Shown here in pieces: positions 22,704-63,579 of a DNA stretch of 64,000 nucleotides. The DNA is taken from contig DYID01000020.1 of assembly GCA_020723805.1 (NCBI GenBank), positions 1 to 64,000 on the forward strand, in the 5' to 3' direction. Made by a program: the position numbers and the translations under genes. The stretch's first letter is position 1, and each line of letters starts with the position of its first letter. Below the pieces are notes generated by a model that saw only the letters and a program-made list of their open reading frames with translations, was not told the origin of the DNA and searched no databases. This stretch comes from Anaerolinea sp. GTDB taxonomy: Bacteria; Chloroflexota; Anaerolineae; Anaerolineales; Villigracilaceae.

Positions 22704-22779
22704 TGATGTAACGCAAGTCCTGGGCTTGCGTTTTTGCATTGACAAAACCGTCCCATCGTCATATAACTGCCTCACAACC

Positions 22780-22869
22780 AAACGGGGAGCCCCGCCGCAC
22801 GGGGCTGAGAGGAGCGTGAAGCGCTCGACCCGCATCACCTGATCCAGATCATACTGGCGGAGGGAACAT
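22780..22869 (+). ncRNA. TPP riboswitch (THI element)
   Basis: 'GGGGAGCCCCGCCGCACGGGGCTGAGAGGAGC...GACCCGCATCACCTGATCCAGATCATACTGGCGGAGGGAA'. Confidence 0.95.
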
Positions 22870-22884
22870 ACTTCATCCACCACC

Positions 22885-35045: not shown

Positions 35046-36695
35046 ATGTCTAAATACGTCGCTGCCATTGACCAAGGCACCACCAGCACGCGTTGCATGA
35101 TTTTCGATCATGGGGGAAATGTGATTGCCGTCCATCAAAAGGAACATCAACAGATTTACCCCAAGCCCGGCTGGGTGGAGCATGACCCGCTGGAAATTTG
35201 GGAGCGCACACAGGAGGTAATGCAGGGGGCGCTGGCGAAGTTATCGAGTGAGCGGTCATCAGTAAGCAGTAATCAGTCATCAGTGATCAGTGAGCAGTCA
35301 TCAGTGAGCAGTGAGCAGTCAACAGTGAGCAGCCATCAGTCAACAGTGAGCAGTGAGATTGCCGCCATCGGAATCACGAATCAACGCGAGACAACGGTGG
35401 TGTGGGAACGGGAAACAGGACGCCCGATTTACAACGCCATCGTCTGGCAGGATACGCGGACGGATGAGATTTGCAACGAACTCGCCAAACAAGGCGGGCA
35501 GGACCGCTGGCGCTCGAAGACCGGTCTGCCGCTGGCGACGTATTTTTCGGGTCCGAAAATCAAATGGATTTTAGACAACGTAGCAGGCGCGCGCGCCAAA
35601 GCCGAACGCGGAGAATTGCTCTTCGGAAACATTGACACCTGGCTCATCTGGAATTTGACAGGGGAGCACGTCACCGATGTGACCAACGCCTCACGCACGC
35701 TGTTGATGAATCTGCACACGTTGGATTGGGATGAGGAAATTCTAAAGGAATTGGACATCCCGCGCGCGATGCTGCCGAAAATCAAATCCTCCTCCGAGGT
35801 GTATGGAACAATTTCTGCTGGTCGAGCAGGCGGCGGGGTTTCGATACGCGAAGAACGCTACTCGACCACCACCGCCGTACCGAAACTAGATGCTTTCAAC
35901 GGCATCCCCGTTGCAGGCGACCTCGGCGACCAGCAGGCGGCGCTCTTCGGTCAGACCTGCTTCACGCCGGGCGAGGCGAAGAACACCTACGGCACGGGCT
36001 GTTTCATGTTGATGAACACCGGTGAGAAACCTGTGCAGAGCAAGTCAGGATTGCTCACCACGCTCGGCTACAAAATCGGCGGTCAGCTCGCCGTGTATGC
36101 GCTGGAAGGTTCGATTGCCATCACCGGTGCGCTCGTCCAATGGCTGCGCGACAATCTCGGCTTGATCGAAAAATCGTCGGACATCGAAGCGCTGGCGCAG
36201 ACCGTGGACGACAACGGCGGCATCTACTTTGTCCCAGCCTTCAGCGGGCTGTTCGCGCCCTATTGGAAGTCCAATGCGAGAGGCGTTATCGTCGGGTTGA
36301 CGCGCTACGTCAACAAGGGACACATCGCCCGCGCCGCCCTCGAAGCCACCGCCTTCCAGACGCGCGAAGTGCTCGACGCCATGGAAACAGACTCCGCCGT
36401 GAAGTTGACCGCCCTCAAAGTGGACGGCGGCATGGTCTTCAATGAACTGCTCATGCAATTTCAGGCAGACGTGTTGAATGTGCCGGTCATCCGCCCCAAA
36501 GTGGCAGAGACCACCGCCCTCGGCGCGGCATACGCGGCTGGACTCGCCGTCGGCTTTTGGAAGGACTACGACGAACTGCGCGCCAACTGGGCAAAGGAGC
36601 GGGAATGGCACCCCAAAATGGACGCAGAGACGCGAAAGAAGTTATACTCTGGCTGGAAGAAGGCAGTCACACGCACGTTCGATTGGGTCGAATAA
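35046..36695 (+). CDS. glpK: glycerol kinase with in-frame repeat insertion
   Basis: '[16 protein letters not shown]', '[30 protein letters not shown]'. Confidence 0.95.
35249..35353. repeat. 7-bp-period array, 15 units (consensus TNANCAG), inside glpK
   Basis: tcatcag/taagcag/taatcag/tcatcag/tgatcag/tgagcag...; 105 bp = 35 codons. Confidence 0.95.
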
Positions 36696-51483: not shown

Positions 51484-51609
51484 TATCAGTCATCAATAAT
51501 CAGTTATCAGTGAGCAGTGAGCAGTGATCAGTTATCAGTGAGCAGTGATCAGTGAGCAGTGGTGCGAGAGAAAAATCGTCAATCGAAAATCGCAAATCGA
51601 AAATCGAAT
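51484..51609. repeat. two adjacent 7-bp-period arrays (CAGTGAG/CAGTTAT-type, then ATCGAAA/ATCGCAA-type)
   Basis: 11 + 5 consecutive 7-mers between start of deacetylase gene and stop of ino1. Confidence 0.92.
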
Positions 51610-52694
51610 TATTCTTCCGATTTGCCCGAAATGAAGTCTTCCACTTTTTGTTTGGCGATTTCGTCGCGGAATTGGACCGGCGGGGTCTTGAAGAAGTAGG
51701 AGGAGGGTCCGATGATGGGACCGGCAAGTTCGCGGTCGAGGGCAAGTTTGGCGCAGCGGATGGCGTCAATCATCACGCCGGCAGAGTTGGGGCTGTCCCA
51801 CACTTCGAGTTTGACTTCGACGTTGAGCGGCACGTTGCCGAAGGTGGTGCCTTCCATGCGGATGTATGCCCATTTGCGGTCGGTCAGCCAGGGAACGTGG
51901 TCGGAGGGACCGACATGGACGTTATCGGGGTCGAGTTCGTAGGGGATCATGCTGGTGACGGCGTTGGTCTTGGAGATTTTTTTGCTTTCGAGGCGTTCGC
52001 GTTCGAGCATGTTGAGGAAGTCGGTGTTGCCGCCGAAGTTGAGCTGGTAGGTGCGCTCGATTTTGACGCCGCGGTCAATGAAGAGGGTGGCGAGTTGGCG
52101 GTGCAGGATGGTGGCGCCCACCTGGCTTTTGATGTCGTCGCCGAGGATGGGAAGCCCGGCGTCGGCAAAGCGCTTGCCCCAGTATTCGGAGGAGGCGATG
52201 AAGACCGGGATGCCGTTGACAAAGGCGCAGCCGGCTTCGATTGCCTGCTCCACGTACCATTTGGTCGCCATTTCGGAGCCGACCGGCAGGAAGTTGACAA
52301 CCACGTCGGTTTTGGTCTCGCGCAGCAGGCGGACAATATCGGCGGTGGGACCGGGTGCCTTTTGGATGATGCCGCTGAGATATTTGCCGAGTCCGTCGTG
52401 GGTCATGCCGCGCACGACGGGGGCGTTGAGGTGCGGGACTTCGGCAAATTTGTAGGTGTTGTTGGGTTCGGCAAAGATGGCTTCGGAGAGGTCCTTGCCG
52501 ACTTTGGTAACGTTCACGTCAATGCCGAGGGTGAACTCAATGTCGCGGATGTGGTAATCCGCCAGTTGGGGGTGCATGATGCCGGGAATGACATCGTCCT
52601 TTTTGGCGTTTTTGTAGAATTGCACTCCCTGGACGAGAGAGGATGCACAGTTTCCCACGCCGATGATGGCGACGCGTACCTTTTTGTGTGGCAT
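51609..52694 (-). CDS. ino1: inositol-3-phosphate synthase
   Basis: '[23 protein letters not shown]...[17 protein letters not shown]', '[11 protein letters not shown]'. Confidence 0.92.
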
Positions 52695-54703: not shown

Positions 54704-55045
54704 GCACCATTCAGAAGGAGTAAGCGTGTTGGTCGCCTGATAGAGAAGGAGACGCGCGGTGGAAGTCTCCGCAGGAAAACAACGCCGAAGTCGTCTGAAT
54801 GAGAGAATGCCGAAGAACGTCAGTGATTTAGTGATCAGTCACCAGTGATCAGTAGTCAGTGATCAGTAGTCAGTGACTAGTAGAACGGCACGGGTGCGCC
54901 CGTTATCGCGCAGGCTGATGAACACGTCAGTCACAGAGTGTCCCGCAGACAAGTGCGGGAAATTGAGGTGGTACCGCGGAGTCGCCGCCCTGAGTTTATC
55001 GAAGGGAACGCTTCGTCCTCATAACGGACGAGGCGCTTTTGTTTA
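54704..55045 (+). ncRNA. T-box riboswitch leader (candidate specifier GUC, Val)
   Basis: ATTCAGA/TCTGAAT basal stem with AGTA/GAA loop-E; AG-bulge ATAGAGA; distal GGTGGAA; T-box 'GAGGTGGTACCGCGG'; terminator CGCTTCGTCC-tcataac-GGACGAGGCG-TTTT. Confidence 0.9.
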
Positions 55046-55061
55046 ACAGGCATTTGCCAAA

Positions 55062-56030
55062 ATGACCCGATATTTCATCACCGGCGGACTGGGGTTTCTC
55101 GGGCAGTACATCGTGAAGACAATTCACGATCACGACCCCGGGGCTGAACTGCGCGTCCTTGTCCGCACACCGCGGAAGACGTTCCTCGGAATCGAGACGC
55201 TGAAACACGTCACCTGGGTGCGCGGAGATTTGCTCCAGCCCGAAACCTACACCGAAGCCCTGCGCGGCGTGGATGCAATCGTACATAACGCGGCGATGGT
55301 GTCGTTCCGTAAATCGGAAGCGGAGACAATCGTCAGGTCCAATGTGAACGGGACGCGGTTCCTGGCGGAAGCGGCGCGCGCGGCAGACTGTCCGAACTTC
55401 GTTTTCGTCAGTTCCATCTCCTCCATCGGCTTCAACCTCAATGGTTTGACCGATGAGACGATGATGCCCGACCTGGAGACCAAACGCCGCACCGACGCCT
55501 ACGGATACAGCAAACTGGTCAGCGAGGCGGAGTTGCGGGAGATGACAGACGACATGCGCGTCGTCATCTTGAACCCGAGCGTGATTCTTGGTCCCGGCTC
55601 CGACCGCATAGACATGACCATGCGCGCCGTCAGACTTCTGCCGGTCATTCCGATGCTGCAATACGTCAACAGTTTCGTGGATGTACGAGATGCGGCGCGC
55701 GCGGTGTTCCTCTCATTGACGCGGGGCAGAAACGGTGAACGTTATATCGTCACCGCCTGGAACGAGGACATGATCGCCTTCACCCAGATCGTCCTGCGGC
55801 TGGCAGGCAAAAAGGCGCGTATTCTCCCGCTGGCAGGGCGGGGCGTGAAAATCATGGATGTCTTTCTCTGGGCGCTGGATGTGATGAGGCTCAATCCCGG
55901 CATCCGCCGCCTCTCAGAAATCAACGTGGATAAAGCCTGCTCGTCCGAAAAGATTCGCCGCGAGATGGGCTGGGAACCGTCTCTAACGCTGGAACAATCC
56001 ATTCGGGATTCTATTCTCATCAAAGAGTAA
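55062..56030 (+). CDS. NAD-dependent epimerase/dehydratase
   Basis: 'ITGGLGFLGQYIVKTI', 'YGYSKLVSEAEL'. Confidence 0.9.
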   Translation: MTRYFITGGLGFLGQYIVKTIHDHDPGAELRVLVRTPRKTFLGIETLKHVTWVRGDLLQPETYTEALRGVDAIVHNAAMVSFRKSEAETIVRSNVNGTRFLAEAARAADCPNFVFVSSISSIGFNLNGLTDETMMPDLETKRRTDAYGYSKLVSEAELREMTDDMRVVILNPSVILGPGSDRIDMTMRAVRLLPVIPMLQYVNSFVDVRDAARAVFLSLTRGRNGERYIVTAWNEDMIAFTQIVLRLAGKKARILPLAGRGVKIMDVFLWALDVMRLNPGIRRLSEINVDKACSSEKIRREMGWEPSLTLEQSIRDSILIKE

Positions 56031-56201
56031 ATCGCGGTTATTTTCGATGGAGCAAAATTATGAATGTGCGCGCCATTGTTCAATCTCAATACCTTGCCGC
56101 GCTGGCAAACAAACTTGAATTGCAGATTTACAACATCCGCCACATTCAACAGCATACCGGCGAACTGTACGAACGGTTGAGGCGCTACGACGTGAAATTA
56201 A

Positions 56202-56413
56202 ACTCAGTAACTCACCTTACGCGGTGGCGTGAGATTTATCTCGCGCTTTTAGGCGACATCAATGTCGCGCTACGAGAAAACTGCGTAAGGCGACTCAGTA
56301 AATCACAAGTTTGCTGTAGTAACGACTTTAGTCGTTGATTTGTTCAGAAACTTCAGCCCAAAAGCGACTAAAGTCACCACTACAGGTCATTCAAGTGTTG
56401 AAACCGTGATTTA
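56202..56413. repeat. palindromic repeat cluster between epimerase gene and valS
   Basis: copy of 9.9-kb element, then TAGTAACGACTTTAGTCGTT...GCGACTAAAGTCACCACTACAG. Confidence 0.8.
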
Positions 56414-56449
56414 CTGAAACTGGTCATCCAAGCGATACAAGGAGAAGAA

Positions 56450-59185
56450 ATGAGCAAACACGAACTACCCAAGACCTACGACTTCAAATCCACGGAGGCG
56501 CGCATCTACGCGATGTGGGAGGCGGGCGGCTACTTCCAGCCATGGAACGACCCCAACAAGCCGGGCTTCGACCCCTCCGTCAAGCCGTTCGTCATCTCTA
56601 TCCCGCCGCCGAACGTGACCGGCGAACTGCATCTCGGTCACGCCATGTTCGTCAGCGTCGAAGACCTGATGATCCGCTATCACCGCATGAAGGGCATCCC
56701 CACGCTGTGGGTGCCAGGCACCGACCACGCCGGCATCGCCACACAACTCATGGTGGAGCGCGACCTGCTCAGGAACGAGGGAGTGAGGCGCGAAGAACTG
56801 GGGCGCGAGGAGTTCATCAAACGCACCTGGGAATGGAAGCGCAAGTACGGGAACATCATCACCACCCAGATTCGTCGCCTCGGCGCCTCCTGCGATTGGA
56901 CGCGCGAACGCTTCACCCTCGACGAGGGACTGAGCCGCGCCGTGCGGGAAGCATTCGTCCGCCTCTACGAAAAGGGACTGATCTACCGCGGTCCGCGCCT
57001 CATCAACTGGTCGCCGGGACTCAAGACCGCCGTCTCCGACCTCGAGGTGGAGTATGAGGAAGAGGATGTGACGCTGTATTATTTCAAATATATGATCAAA
57101 CCCGTAGGGATTGGGTCACCCGACCCCTACAAGGATGAATACATCCCCGTCGCCACCATCCGCCCGGAGACCATCCTTGGCGATACGGCGGTGGCGGTCC
57201 ACCCCGAAGACGAGCGCTACAAAAAATACATCGGGCGCACCGCCATTGTGCCAATTCTCGGACGTGAGATACCGGTCATTGCAGATGAATACGTCAGCAT
57301 GGAGTTCGGCACCGGCGCGCTCAAAATCACGCCCGGTCACGACCCGAACGACTACGCCATCGCCCAGCGCCACAATCTGCCGGTCATCTCCGTGCTGGAT
57401 GCGGAGGCAAAGGTCAACGAAAACGGCGGCAAGTACAAAGGTCAAGACCGCTTCGAGGCGCGGAAAAACCTGTGGGCAGATATGAAAGCCGCCGGTCTCG
57501 TCATCAAAGAGGAGCCGTACCGCACCACCATTCCGCGTTCCCAGCGCGGAGGCGAAATCGTCGAGCCGATGATTTCCACACAGTGGTTCGTCAAAATCGA
57601 GCCGCTTGCCAAAGCCGCCATCGAAGCCGTGAAGGACGGGCGTATCCGCATTGTGCCGGAACGTTTCGAAAAGGTCTATTTCAACTGGATGGAAAACATC
57701 AAGGACTGGTGCATCAGCCGTCAGTTGTGGTGGGGACACCGCATCCCCGTGTGGTATTGCCCCGAAGGTCACATGACCGTGGCGCGCGAAGACCCGACCG
57801 AATGTGCCGCCTGCGGCTCGAAGGACATCCATCAGGATGAAGACGTGCTGGATACGTGGTTCTCCTCCGGCTTGTGGCCCTTCTCCACGCTCGGCTGGCC
57901 CCAGGAAACGCCCGATTACAAATACTTCTATCCCACCTCCTACATGGAGACGGGGTACGACATCCTGTTCTTCTGGGTGGCGCGCATGATCATGAGCGGA
58001 CTGGAATTCACCGGTCAGATTCCTTTCCATACCGTGTACCTGCACGGACTGGTGCGCGATGAACACGGGCAGAAAATGTCGAAGACCAAGGGCAATGTAA
58101 TTGACCCGCTCATCGTGATGGATGAGTTCGGCACGGATGCGCTGCGTTTCACACTGTTGGTGGGCTCCACGCCCGGCAACGACATGAACCTCTCGGTGAA
58201 AAAGGTGGAAGCAAACCGCAACTTTGCCAACAAGTTGTGGAATGCGGGACGCTTCGTCATTAACGCCATCGGTGGTTTGGAAGCAGGTACACAAGCACAT
58301 ACGTACACAGGTACACAGGCGGACAAGTGGACGCTGGCGGATTCGTGGATTTGGGCAAAACTGCAGCAACTCATCCGCGATGTGGAGCGGCAGTTCCAAA
58401 ACTTCCAATATGGGCAGGCAGGGCAGCAAATTTACGATTTCCTCTGGTCCGATTTTGCCGATTGGTATGTGGAGATCGCCAAAAGCCAACTTCAGAATTC
58501 AGAACTCAGAATTCAGACTGTGAAAACTTTGGCGAGGATATTGGACATCGTTCTACGCTTGCTCCATCCCTTCACGCCGTTCGTGACCGAGGAAATTTGG
58601 GGACACTTGCGCGACGCCCTCCGCGCCTCTCCGATCTCGCACCTCGCCTCGGACTGGTCGCATGCGTTGATCGTTGCCCGCTGGCCCCAGCCGCGTCCGC
58701 CCGAAGGCTGGGAGGCAGCCAAGGTTGCCGATTTCGAGTTGATTCAGGAAATCGTGCGCTCCATCCGCAATCTGCGCGCGGAGAAGAACGTATCCGCGTC
58801 GAAGAAACTGGCTGCGACCATCGTCGGCGGGGCAAAGACAGAACTGGTAAAAAGCCAGGCTGATGTGATTGCGTCGCTTGCCGGACTCGACCTGTCACAA
58901 ATTACCATTTACCAATCGCTTACCGACAAGCCCGCTGATTCCGCTGTCCTCGTCGTCGGCGCGGTGGAGGTGTATCTCCCGCTGGCAGGCATGGTGAATC
59001 TGGAGGAAGAAAGAGCGCGGCTGGAAAAGGAACTCAAGGAAACCGAAGCGCACATTGCCCGCCTCGAAAAACTCCTCGCCAGCGATTTCGCCAGTAAAGC
59101 CCCGCCTGCCGTCGTCCAAAAGGAGCGCGACAAACTCGCCACCTACAAGGAGACGGCGGAGAAAATCAAGGCGCAGTTGGCGTAA
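56450..59185 (+). CDS. valS: valyl-tRNA synthetase
   Basis: 'PPPNVTGELHLGHAMF', 'KMSKTKGNVIDPL'. Confidence 0.97.
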   Translation: MSKHELPKTYDFKSTEARIYAMWEAGGYFQPWNDPNKPGFDPSVKPFVISIPPPNVTGELHLGHAMFVSVEDLMIRYHRMKGIPTLWVPGTDHAGIATQLMVERDLLRNEGVRREELGREEFIKRTWEWKRKYGNIITTQIRRLGASCDWTRERFTLDEGLSRAVREAFVRLYEKGLIYRGPRLINWSPGLKTAVSDLEVEYEEEDVTLYYFKYMIKPVGIGSPDPYKDEYIPVATIRPETILGDTAVAVHPEDERYKKYIGRTAIVPILGREIPVIADEYVSMEFGTGALKITPGHDPNDYAIAQRHNLPVISVLDAEAKVNENGGKYKGQDRFEARKNLWADMKAAGLVIKEEPYRTTIPRSQRGGEIVEPMISTQWFVKIEPLAKAAIEAVKDGRIRIVPERFEKVYFNWMENIKDWCISRQLWWGHRIPVWYCPEGHMTVAREDPTECAACGSKDIHQDEDVLDTWFSSGLWPFSTLGWPQETPDYKYFYPTSYMETGYDILFFWVARMIMSGLEFTGQIPFHTVYLHGLVRDEHGQKMSKTKGNVIDPLIVMDEFGTDALRFTLLVGSTPGNDMNLSVKKVEANRNFANKLWNAGRFVINAIGGLEAGTQAHTYTGTQADKWTLADSWIWAKLQQLIRDVERQFQNFQYGQAGQQIYDFLWSDFADWYVEIAKSQLQNSELRIQTVKTLARILDIVLRLLHPFTPFVTEEIWGHLRDALRASPISHLASDWSHALIVARWPQPRPPEGWEAAKVADFELIQEIVRSIRNLRAEKNVSASKKLAATIVGGAKTELVKSQADVIASLAGLDLSQITIYQSLTDKPADSAVLVVGAVEVYLPLAGMVNLEEERARLEKELKETEAHIARLEKLLASDFASKAPPAVVQKERDKLATYKETAEKIKAQLA
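58491..58518. repeat. 7-bp-period array (TTCAGAA x4) in frame within valS
   Basis: ttcagaa/ttcagaa/ctcagaa/ttcagac. Confidence 0.85.
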
Positions 59186-61350: not shown

Positions 61351-63162
61351 TCACAACTCCTTCGCCCGCCTGGCAATGCGGTCCTTCGCCCGCGCAATGA
61401 ACTCTGCCAGCGGGATGTTATTCTGCTGACTGCCGTCGCGCACGCGCAGCGAGATTTGCCCCGCTTCCATCTCGTTTTTACCGACCACGATCATGTACGG
61501 CACTTTCATCATCTGCGCGTCGCGGATTTTGGCGTTCATGCGCTGGGAAGACAGGTCGGCGCTGGCGCGGATACCGTTTGCGCGCAACTGCTTTGCGATG
61601 TTTTCCGCGTACTCGTTCTGTCCGTCTGTGATGGGGATGACACGCGCCTGTTCCGGCGAGAGCCAGACCGGGAACGCGCCGGCATAATGCTCGATGAGGA
61701 AGCCGATCATGCGCTCGTGCGTGGAGAGCGGCGCGCGGTGGATGCACAGCGGCACTTCCTCCTGCCCGTCCTTGTTGATGTACTTCAGGTCGAAGCGGGC
61801 AGGGACGGCGAAATCCACTTGATTCGTCGCCAGCGAGAACTCGCGTCCGATGGCAGACCAGATTTGCACGTCAATTTTGGGACCGTAGAAAGCGGCTTCG
61901 TCCTCCGCCTCCACAAACGGGACGCCGCCGTTCGTCATGGCGCGGCGCACCATCTCCTCCGTCTTCAGCCACAGACGTTCGTTGTCCACGTACTTTTTGC
62001 CCAGTCCCGCCTTCGAGTGCAATGACAGGCGCATGACGAACTTCTCGATGCCGAACAGGTCGAAGTATTTGCGGTACAGGTCCACCACGCCCATAAATTC
62101 CTGCTCGAACAACTCCTCCGAGACGTAGATGTGCGAGTCGTTCATCTGCATCGAGCGGACGCGCATCAAGCCAAAGAGTTCGCCCGATTTCTCGTAGCGG
62201 TAGCACGTCCCATATTCCGCGAGGCGGAGCGGCAGGTCGCGGTAGGAGCGCTGTTTCGAGCCGAAAATCTTGTGGTGGAACGGACAGTTCATCGGTTTGA
62301 CGTAGTACTTCACGCCCTCCAATTCCATCGGCGGGTACATGGACTCGGCATAATAGGGAAGATGCCCCGAACGCAGGAAGAGGTCTTCCTTCGTCAGGTG
62401 CGGCGTGCGGACGCGCACATAGCCCGCCTTTTCCTCCATCTCTTTGGCGAGCTTTTCCAGTTCCTCGATCATCACGCCACCGTTGGGCAGCCACAAAGGC
62501 AGACCGGGACCGACCTCCTCATCGAAGATGAAGATTTCCAGTTCCTTGCCCAGTTTGCGGTGATCGCGCTTCTTCGCCTCTTCCAACTGATGAAGATATT
62601 CCTCCAGTTGTTGTTTGTTCTCCCATGCCGTGCCGTAAATGCGCTGTAACTGCTTGTTGTTTTCGTCGCCGCGCCAGTAGGCACCCGCCACGTTCATCAG
62701 TTTGAACGCATCGGGCTTGATCTCGCGCGTGTTCGCCACATGCGGACCGCGGCACAGGTCAACGAACGTGTCGTGCTGATAGATGGAGATTTCGGGCTTT
62801 TCCTTGAGCGGGTTGCCATATTCATCGAACCCGCCCTGCTCGAGTCCATCAATCAACTCCAGTTTGTAGGGCTGGTCTTTGAAAATTTGACGCGCCTCAT
62901 CCGCCGACACCACCTTCTTGATGAAGTCGTGCTTGCCCTGCACGATCTGGCGCATCCGCTTTTCGATGGCTTCCAGGTCTTCGGGCGTCAGGCTGCGCGG
63001 CAAGTCGAAGTCGTAGTAAAAGCCGTTTTCCACCGGCGGACCAATCGTGTACTTCGCCTCCGGGAACATCTCCAGCACGGCTTGCGCCATGATGTGCGCC
63101 GCCGAGTGACGGATTCGATACAGATGGGACTCCTCATATTTTTCCTGAACTTGTTGCGCCAT
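61351..63162 (-). CDS. thrS: threonyl-tRNA synthetase, apparently lacking N-terminal TGS domain
   Basis: starts near editing domain 'RHSAAHIMAQAVLEMFPEAKYTIGPPVENGFYYDFDLP'; full catalytic core. Confidence 0.95.
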   Translation of the reverse strand: MAQQVQEKYEESHLYRIRHSAAHIMAQAVLEMFPEAKYTIGPPVENGFYYDFDLPRSLTPEDLEAIEKRMRQIVQGKHDFIKKVVSADEARQIFKDQPYKLELIDGLEQGGFDEYGNPLKEKPEISIYQHDTFVDLCRGPHVANTREIKPDAFKLMNVAGAYWRGDENNKQLQRIYGTAWENKQQLEEYLHQLEEAKKRDHRKLGKELEIFIFDEEVGPGLPLWLPNGGVMIEELEKLAKEMEEKAGYVRVRTPHLTKEDLFLRSGHLPYYAESMYPPMELEGVKYYVKPMNCPFHHKIFGSKQRSYRDLPLRLAEYGTCYRYEKSGELFGLMRVRSMQMNDSHIYVSEELFEQEFMGVVDLYRKYFDLFGIEKFVMRLSLHSKAGLGKKYVDNERLWLKTEEMVRRAMTNGGVPFVEAEDEAAFYGPKIDVQIWSAIGREFSLATNQVDFAVPARFDLKYINKDGQEEVPLCIHRAPLSTHERMIGFLIEHYAGAFPVWLSPEQARVIPITDGQNEYAENIAKQLRANGIRASADLSSQRMNAKIRDAQMMKVPYMIVVGKNEMEAGQISLRVRDGSQQNNIPLAEFIARAKDRIARRAKEL

Positions 63163-63224: not shown

Positions 63225-63515
63225 AAAAATTCTCGCCCACACACGGGGCGAGAATTCAATTCACGCGGTTCCACCCGATTTGTGGGGCGAGATGAATCTC
63301 GCCGCACATCTCTTCAGCCTCTAACGGAGCCACCCGTTTCGCTTACTGACTGATCACTGTTCACCGATTACTGATTACTGATTACTGAACACTGATCACT
63401 GTTCCGCTCCACGCTCGCGAGGGGTTTTCGGCGACTGTTTCTGCAAGAGGCTCTCAATCTGCGGCTTCTTGTCCCTGTCAGACCGTCGTCACCTACTCGT
63501 CTCGGTCAACGCGTT
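63225..63515 (-). ncRNA. T-box riboswitch leader of thrS
   Basis: on minus strand: AGTA/GAA loop-E, AG-bulge, T-box 'CGGGTGGAACCGCG', terminator ATTCTCGCCCCgtgtgtGGGCGAGAAT-TTTT. Confidence 0.9.
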
Positions 63516-63579
63516 TTGAATTTCGATTGGCGGCATTATACCCACATCCACCAAAAAGCACAACCTGCCCCTGCAACTC

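Follow-up and report, generated by a model that had tools for sequence, protein, structure and literature searches.

The heptad array in the leader of thrS, the gene of a threonyl-tRNA synthetase, probably forms the distal hairpin in Stem II of a T-box riboswitch, a site where dispersed, self-pairing heptads would colonise hairpins that the RNA tolerates and slip within them. The features concerned, all within the 64,000-nt stretch of DNA analysed here (the window), are collected in Table 1. The identity of the leader as a T-box, put forward in a sequence-only reading of this DNA, has been confirmed: all core T-box parts are matched by RF00230 with 76.4 bits, a score under the gathering score of 93, and a competing terminator is present as well. 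The GAAAACC of Stem I gives ACC (Thr) as the specifier, which fits the downstream gene, and the leader presumably controls thrS in the ordinary T-box way (transcriptional, class I). A sigma-70 consensus scan of this leader gave no promoter at the scan thresholds; a TATAAT is present at 63530-63525. The array itself was also described correctly on the minus strand, since the string quoted in that reading is found with period 7 at 63400-63350. Its placement in a linker between Stem I and the T-box region, on the other hand, has to be corrected. In thrS, the S-turn strands GAA (63404-63402) and AGTA (63347-63344) flank the insert, according to both the model alignment and the sequence, and the same two strands enclose the array of a second T-box leader, of Val type. 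Both arrays are therefore inside Stem II, in its distal part, and no linker after Stem I is involved.

Table 1. Features of the thrS and Val T-box leaders (coordinates are those of the window).
Feature	Position	Strand	Remarks
thrS T-box leader	63241-63518	minus	RF00230, full-length match 1-219, E 7e-17
Stem II distal insert of thrS leader, 54 nt	63348-63401	minus	CAG + 7 heptads + TC
Hairpin arm 1a of thrS insert, TGATCA	63393-63398	minus	pairs with 63356-63351 in predicted folds (minimum-energy and centroid)
Hairpin arm 2a of thrS insert, TGTTCA	63386-63391	minus	pairs with TGAACA 63363-63358 in predicted folds
Loop of thrS insert, three TAATC(A/G)G heptads	63364-63385	minus	nearest relative (G014) lacks 21 nt here
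Stem IIA/B pseudoknot region of thrS leader	63322-63337	minus	ACGGGTGGCTCCGTTA; RF00230 alignment
Stem III of thrS leader	63282-63307	minus	palindrome similar to a dispersed REP-like element of this genome
T-box sequence (antiterminator) of thrS leader	63264-63276	minus	GGGTGGAACCGCG
Intrinsic terminator of thrS leader	63227-63257	minus	12-pair hairpin and T tail
thrS, threonyl-tRNA synthetase	61351-63162	minus	TIGR00418, 657.7 bits (cut-off 383.65); putative ATG start
Val T-box leader, specifier GTC	54704-54995	plus	upstream of an epimerase-like gene, then valS
Stem II heptad array of Val leader, 61 nt	54818-54878	plus	flanked by GAA 54815-54817 and AGTA 54879-54882

In the thrS insert, Tandem Repeats Finder reports a period of 7 with 7.6 copies and 82% matches (63349-63401), and sequence identity is 0.81 at lag 7 and 0.10-0.13 at lags 5, 6, 8, and 9. 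Between the initial CAG and the final TC the units are, in order, TGATCAG, TGTTCAG, TAATCAG, TAATCAG, TAATCGG, TGAACAG, and TGATCAG. The main unit, TGATCAG, is nearly self-complementary, with six of its seven bases able to pair with another copy, and therefore a tandem array of a single strand also folds on itself; moreover, any two TGATCA units can pair because this hexamer is a palindrome. The pairing listed in Table 1, TGATCA with TGATCA and TGTTCA with TGAACA, has been predicted for the insert alone and for the whole leader, in the centroid as well as in the minimum-energy folds. The order of the units folds no better than random orders in thrS (P 0.15) or in any of five arrays (P 0.15-0.89), and thus it is the repeat family, whatever the arrangement of its units, that confers the pairing. 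Selection on unit order for folding, which was considered as a candidate, has been rejected, as no signal appeared in the five arrays.

Equivalent inserts have been found in relatives of the order Anaerolineales (Chloroflexota); one of the records with a ThrS 85-97% identical belongs to a Candidatus Villigracilaceae bacterium. In what follows, G000 is the present genome (3.69 Mb) and G014 its nearest relative, with a ThrS 97% identical. The thrS insert measures 26 nt in 11 of 18 family members and is longer in heptad-rich genomes, namely 33 nt in G014, 47 in G007, and 54 in G000, that is, 26 plus 7, 21, and 28, although these lengths may be off by one because the S-turn boundaries were placed by eye. 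Alignment of the G000 and G014 inserts leaves a single 21-nt gap, located in the loop. Off this pattern are G021 (27 nt), G023 (24 nt), G008 (11 nt, a minimal loop), and G013 (31 nt, an unrelated hairpin). Lag 7 is prominent in nearly all 18 inserts, with identities of 0.37-0.81 where repeats are present, and the predicted folding of every one of the 18 beats the mean of its dinucleotide shuffles (mean z -3.2). A CAGT-type loop goes with a high number of CAGT arrays in the genome (Mann-Whitney p 0.002), with the exception of G023, which has many such arrays and yet a thrS loop made of a different unit. AGC-type heptads were also considered as a genome-wide source of the non-CAGT thrS loops, but the case is weak: there are 11 hits in G005, 4 in G003, and about 0-2 in the others, in a count whose reversed-pattern control is itself a heptad family.

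The second example is the Val leader, where the repeat call extends over 54820-54876. In this part of the window (54704-56450) the T-box is followed by an NAD-dependent epimerase-like gene and then by valS, which the specifier fits. The common architectural position of the Thr and Val arrays, already pointed out from the letters alone, holds, and this position is recurrently built of repeats in the family. Among Val orthologues, the Stem II insert contains the CAGT strand in G000 and G014, the ACTG strand in G007, G016, and G019, and TTGGTAA-type heptads in G011 (TTGGTAATTACCAATT), and it is short elsewhere. Since strand and unit of this loop differ between species, the same loop has been filled more than once, which implies its repeated colonisation. 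The Val insert lengths have residue 4 modulo 7 (11, 18, 18, 18, 46, 46, and 53 nt) or residue 5 (12, 26, 33, and 61 nt) in 11 of 12 cases.

Changes of this kind between orthologues bear on an adaptive explanation, according to which the number of heptads sets the size or stability of the distal Stem II, and hence the co-transcriptional timing or the access of the tRNA. This is possible, if quite unlikely, and the same low probability is given to the associated idea that copy number has been selected as a fast-mutating knob. The variation of length in unit steps between close relatives, the recurrence of the 26-nt hairpin, and the known importance of Stem II contacts (PMC7583486) would agree with such a role. 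However, unit order folds no better than shuffled order, strand and unit type swap freely between orthologues, an 11-nt loop suffices in G008, and an unrelated hairpin does so in G013. With neither order nor strand nor unit constrained, and with an insert nearly absent in some species, a selected role for copy number is unsupported. The function of the repeats that had been suggested as an alternative to preferential insertion is likewise not upheld by the differences in strand and unit or by an order that is not optimised for folding.

Another explanation is chance: with arrays this frequent in intergenic DNA, their presence in two of the five leaders would need no further cause, and the structure of the RNA would be irrelevant. 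Five T-boxes have been identified in this genome by RF00230 (Ile, Phe, Thr, Ser, and Val). The sequence-only reading had accepted as damaging to its case a finding that other T-boxes lack repeats while intergenic arrays are frequent enough to yield two by chance, and half of this applies: the Ile, Phe, and Ser leaders are without heptads, and intergenic arrays are frequent, with 0.57 per kb in a 464 kb sample and 17% of gaps carrying one. With such a proportion of gaps, two leaders out of five are unremarkable (P 0.21 for at least two, per intergenic gap), whereas the same figure calculated per 66-nt window is 0.005. Chance is nevertheless an unlikely explanation, given that both arrays are exactly between the S-turn strands and that a hairpin is predicted in all 18 thrS inserts. 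A survey of 160 T-boxes, from G000 and its relatives, gave 1.15 lag-7 arrays per kb for Stem II, compared with 0.46 for flanking intergenic DNA and 0.15 for Stem I. For Stem III the density of lag-8 arrays was 2.0 per kb, about nine times the 0.23 of flanking intergenic DNA.

Scoring of lag-7 periodicity over the T-boxes of this genome and its relatives, proposed earlier as a check, gave a clear signal in the family, where 118 T-boxes were well anchored: the Stem II profile peaks at lag 7 (z 6.0), lags 10 and 12-14 being positive but weaker, and the Stem III profile peaks at lag 8 (z 14), with lags 3, 4, and 7 likewise weaker. The Stem II signal comes from the Thr (z 9.2), Val (6.3), and Ile (5.1) classes and is not carried by the Phe, Ser, or Leu (specifier CTC) leaders of the family, in a classification by a simple specifier pattern that placed a few Trp and Leu leaders under Val. 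In comparison with length-matched intergenic windows, lag 7 was detected in 14 of 118 Stem II regions versus 33 of 506 windows (odds ratio 1.9, p 0.04), and lag 8 in 31 of 118 Stem III regions versus 31 of 508 windows (odds ratio 5.5, p < 1e-4), both p-values being optimistic because the genomes are related and not independent samples. The enrichment of heptads in Stem II relative to intergenic DNA is therefore modest and borderline, that of octads in Stem III strong. Preferential insertion, as first proposed for the heptads, finds modest support in the family-wide odds ratio; in this genome alone, it is supported by the figure per 66-nt window and not by that per gap. The stronger preference, that of octads for Stem III, was not mentioned in the sequence-only reading.

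The Stem III octads, for example GTTAGTCGAGTAGTTCGATAGTC ... GACTATCAGACTACAAGACTA, are inverted arrays that form long hairpins. In the Stem III of T-boxes from relatives, for example at loci L196, L075, L089, L091, and L164, the inverted 8-nt unit is TAGTYNNN with its complement. REP-like palindromes (GCGAGATNNATCTCGC and kin), are found 30 times in 464 kb versus 4 times in shuffled sequence, and within the family some leaders of the Phe, Ser, and Thr types have such an element at Stem II or at Stem III. Inverted heptad arrays also occur in the RNase P RNA of two order-level relatives, G037 (L353) and G038 (L332), in a helix which we take to be P12 from the flanking conserved sequence. The P12 of G000 (L346) and of G007 contains another dispersed hairpin, of the CCTCACCC...GGGTGAGG type in G000. 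Heptamers known as STRR have reportedly been observed in RNase P RNA from heterocystous cyanobacteria (Vioque, 1997). As in that case, dispersed genomic heptamers are found here within a structured RNA, and G037 and G038 extend the likeness to RNase P RNA itself; the T-box arrays differ in their units, in the phylum, and in being part of a riboswitch instead of a ribozyme. A wider proposal would see tandem repeats as a general building material of peripheral RNA helices (heptads in Stem II, inverted octads in Stem III, and repeats in P12 of RNase P) and, in addition, the thrS heptad number as a selected, fast-changing, heritable setting; as a whole, it is improbable.

The heptads are heptameric tandem repeats in the usual sense, with a 7-nt unit in tandem and many copies dispersed in the genome. 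G000 contains 258 exact matches to a four-copy CAGTNNN pattern and 2 to the reversed one, and GAT, GAG, AAT, GAA, and TAT are all common after CAGT. Arrays amount to 0.71 per kb in co-directional gaps and 0.22 in convergent ones; the genome-wide densities rest on the 464 kb sample and on pattern counts, with genes called by a home-made codon score, for which reason the 50 arrays scored as coding include some miscalls.

This abundance recalls the TAACTGA direct repeats of Beggiatoaceae, Cyanobacteria, and Bacteroidetes, which are mostly located a few nucleotides upstream of start codons, with related heptamers being rare beside TAACTGA, and which have been proposed to act as a signal for a protein or small RNA on many mRNAs (MacGregor, 2015; PMC4679880). 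Neither Chloroflexota nor riboswitches are mentioned in that work (MacGregor, 2015; PMC4679880). By analogy, the repeats described here might be a sequence signal, namely a protein or small-RNA binding site common to many mRNAs, and their closely related unit (TCAGTTA is the other strand of TAACTGA), their intergenic abundance, and their higher density in co-directional than in convergent gaps could be read in that way. Such a signal is, however, very improbable in thrS: the array ends about 186-190 nt before the start codon, not within several nucleotides of it, and is inside the riboswitch domain; the same loop of orthologues holds both strands of the unit; and arrays occur in glpK too. Unlike the TAACTGA repeats, the heptads are also degenerate, include several common units, and reside within RNA stems. 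In the same phylum, Chloroflexus aurantiacus has heptamer satellites, (GATAGRA)n (Subirana and Messeguer, 2019; PMC6749651), which likewise are tandem repeats found at many places; their unit is different and, in the passages of that report consulted, they are not tied to RNA structures.

The preferred explanation, colonisation of tolerated hairpins by dispersed heptads, is compatible with what is known of the T-box. The parts recognised by its core are the S-turn, the pseudoknot, and the purines around Stem III, the stem tips being variable (PMC7583486). Stem II is the less conserved domain, with diverse insertions whose function is unknown (PMC7583486). The thrS leader shares with the transcriptional T-box riboswitch (RF00230) Stem I and its specifier, the S-turn, Stem IIA/B, Stem III, the T-box bulge, and the terminator, and departs from the usual T-box in having a distal Stem II that is a tandem heptad array with a length changing in 7-nt steps. 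Because the array folds on itself, it can replace or extend the distal Stem II hairpin; self-pairing arrays would do so where the T-box core ignores hairpin length and sequence, with the S-turn kept. Once there, an array would gain and lose whole 7-nt units, most likely via replication slippage, and would be nearly neutral. The same process may have acted independently in the Val leader, in the octads of Stem III, and in P12 of RNase P. Tolerance of stem tips, combined with change by whole units, would thus account for the position, the step lengths, the indifference to strand, and the presence in other RNAs. In the literature searched, mostly papers outside subscription, T-box stems containing tandem repeats were not found described. 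For some unexplained T-box insertions an origin is now apparent in dispersed, self-folding short tandem repeats, whose length varies by whole units and which give way to other repeat families from one species to the next. With the repeat source visible, the origin of variable RNA stems becomes directly testable, and a natural length series is at hand for probing the role of the distal Stem II.

Arrays have been observed in other contexts of the window. In the coding sequence of glpK (FGGY kinase), a heptad array at 35247-35357 adds some 35 residues to the protein as a loop rich in S, Q, and V; at the corresponding site of the G014 gene the array is shorter and the reading frame is maintained. 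At 51485-51612, arrays of CAGTNNN and AAAATCG are adjacent, and the syntenic gap of G014 is almost wholly devoid of them, which indicates a fast turnover of intergenic arrays. Finally, a TPP riboswitch is present at 22773-22883, with 58.9 bits, over the gathering score.
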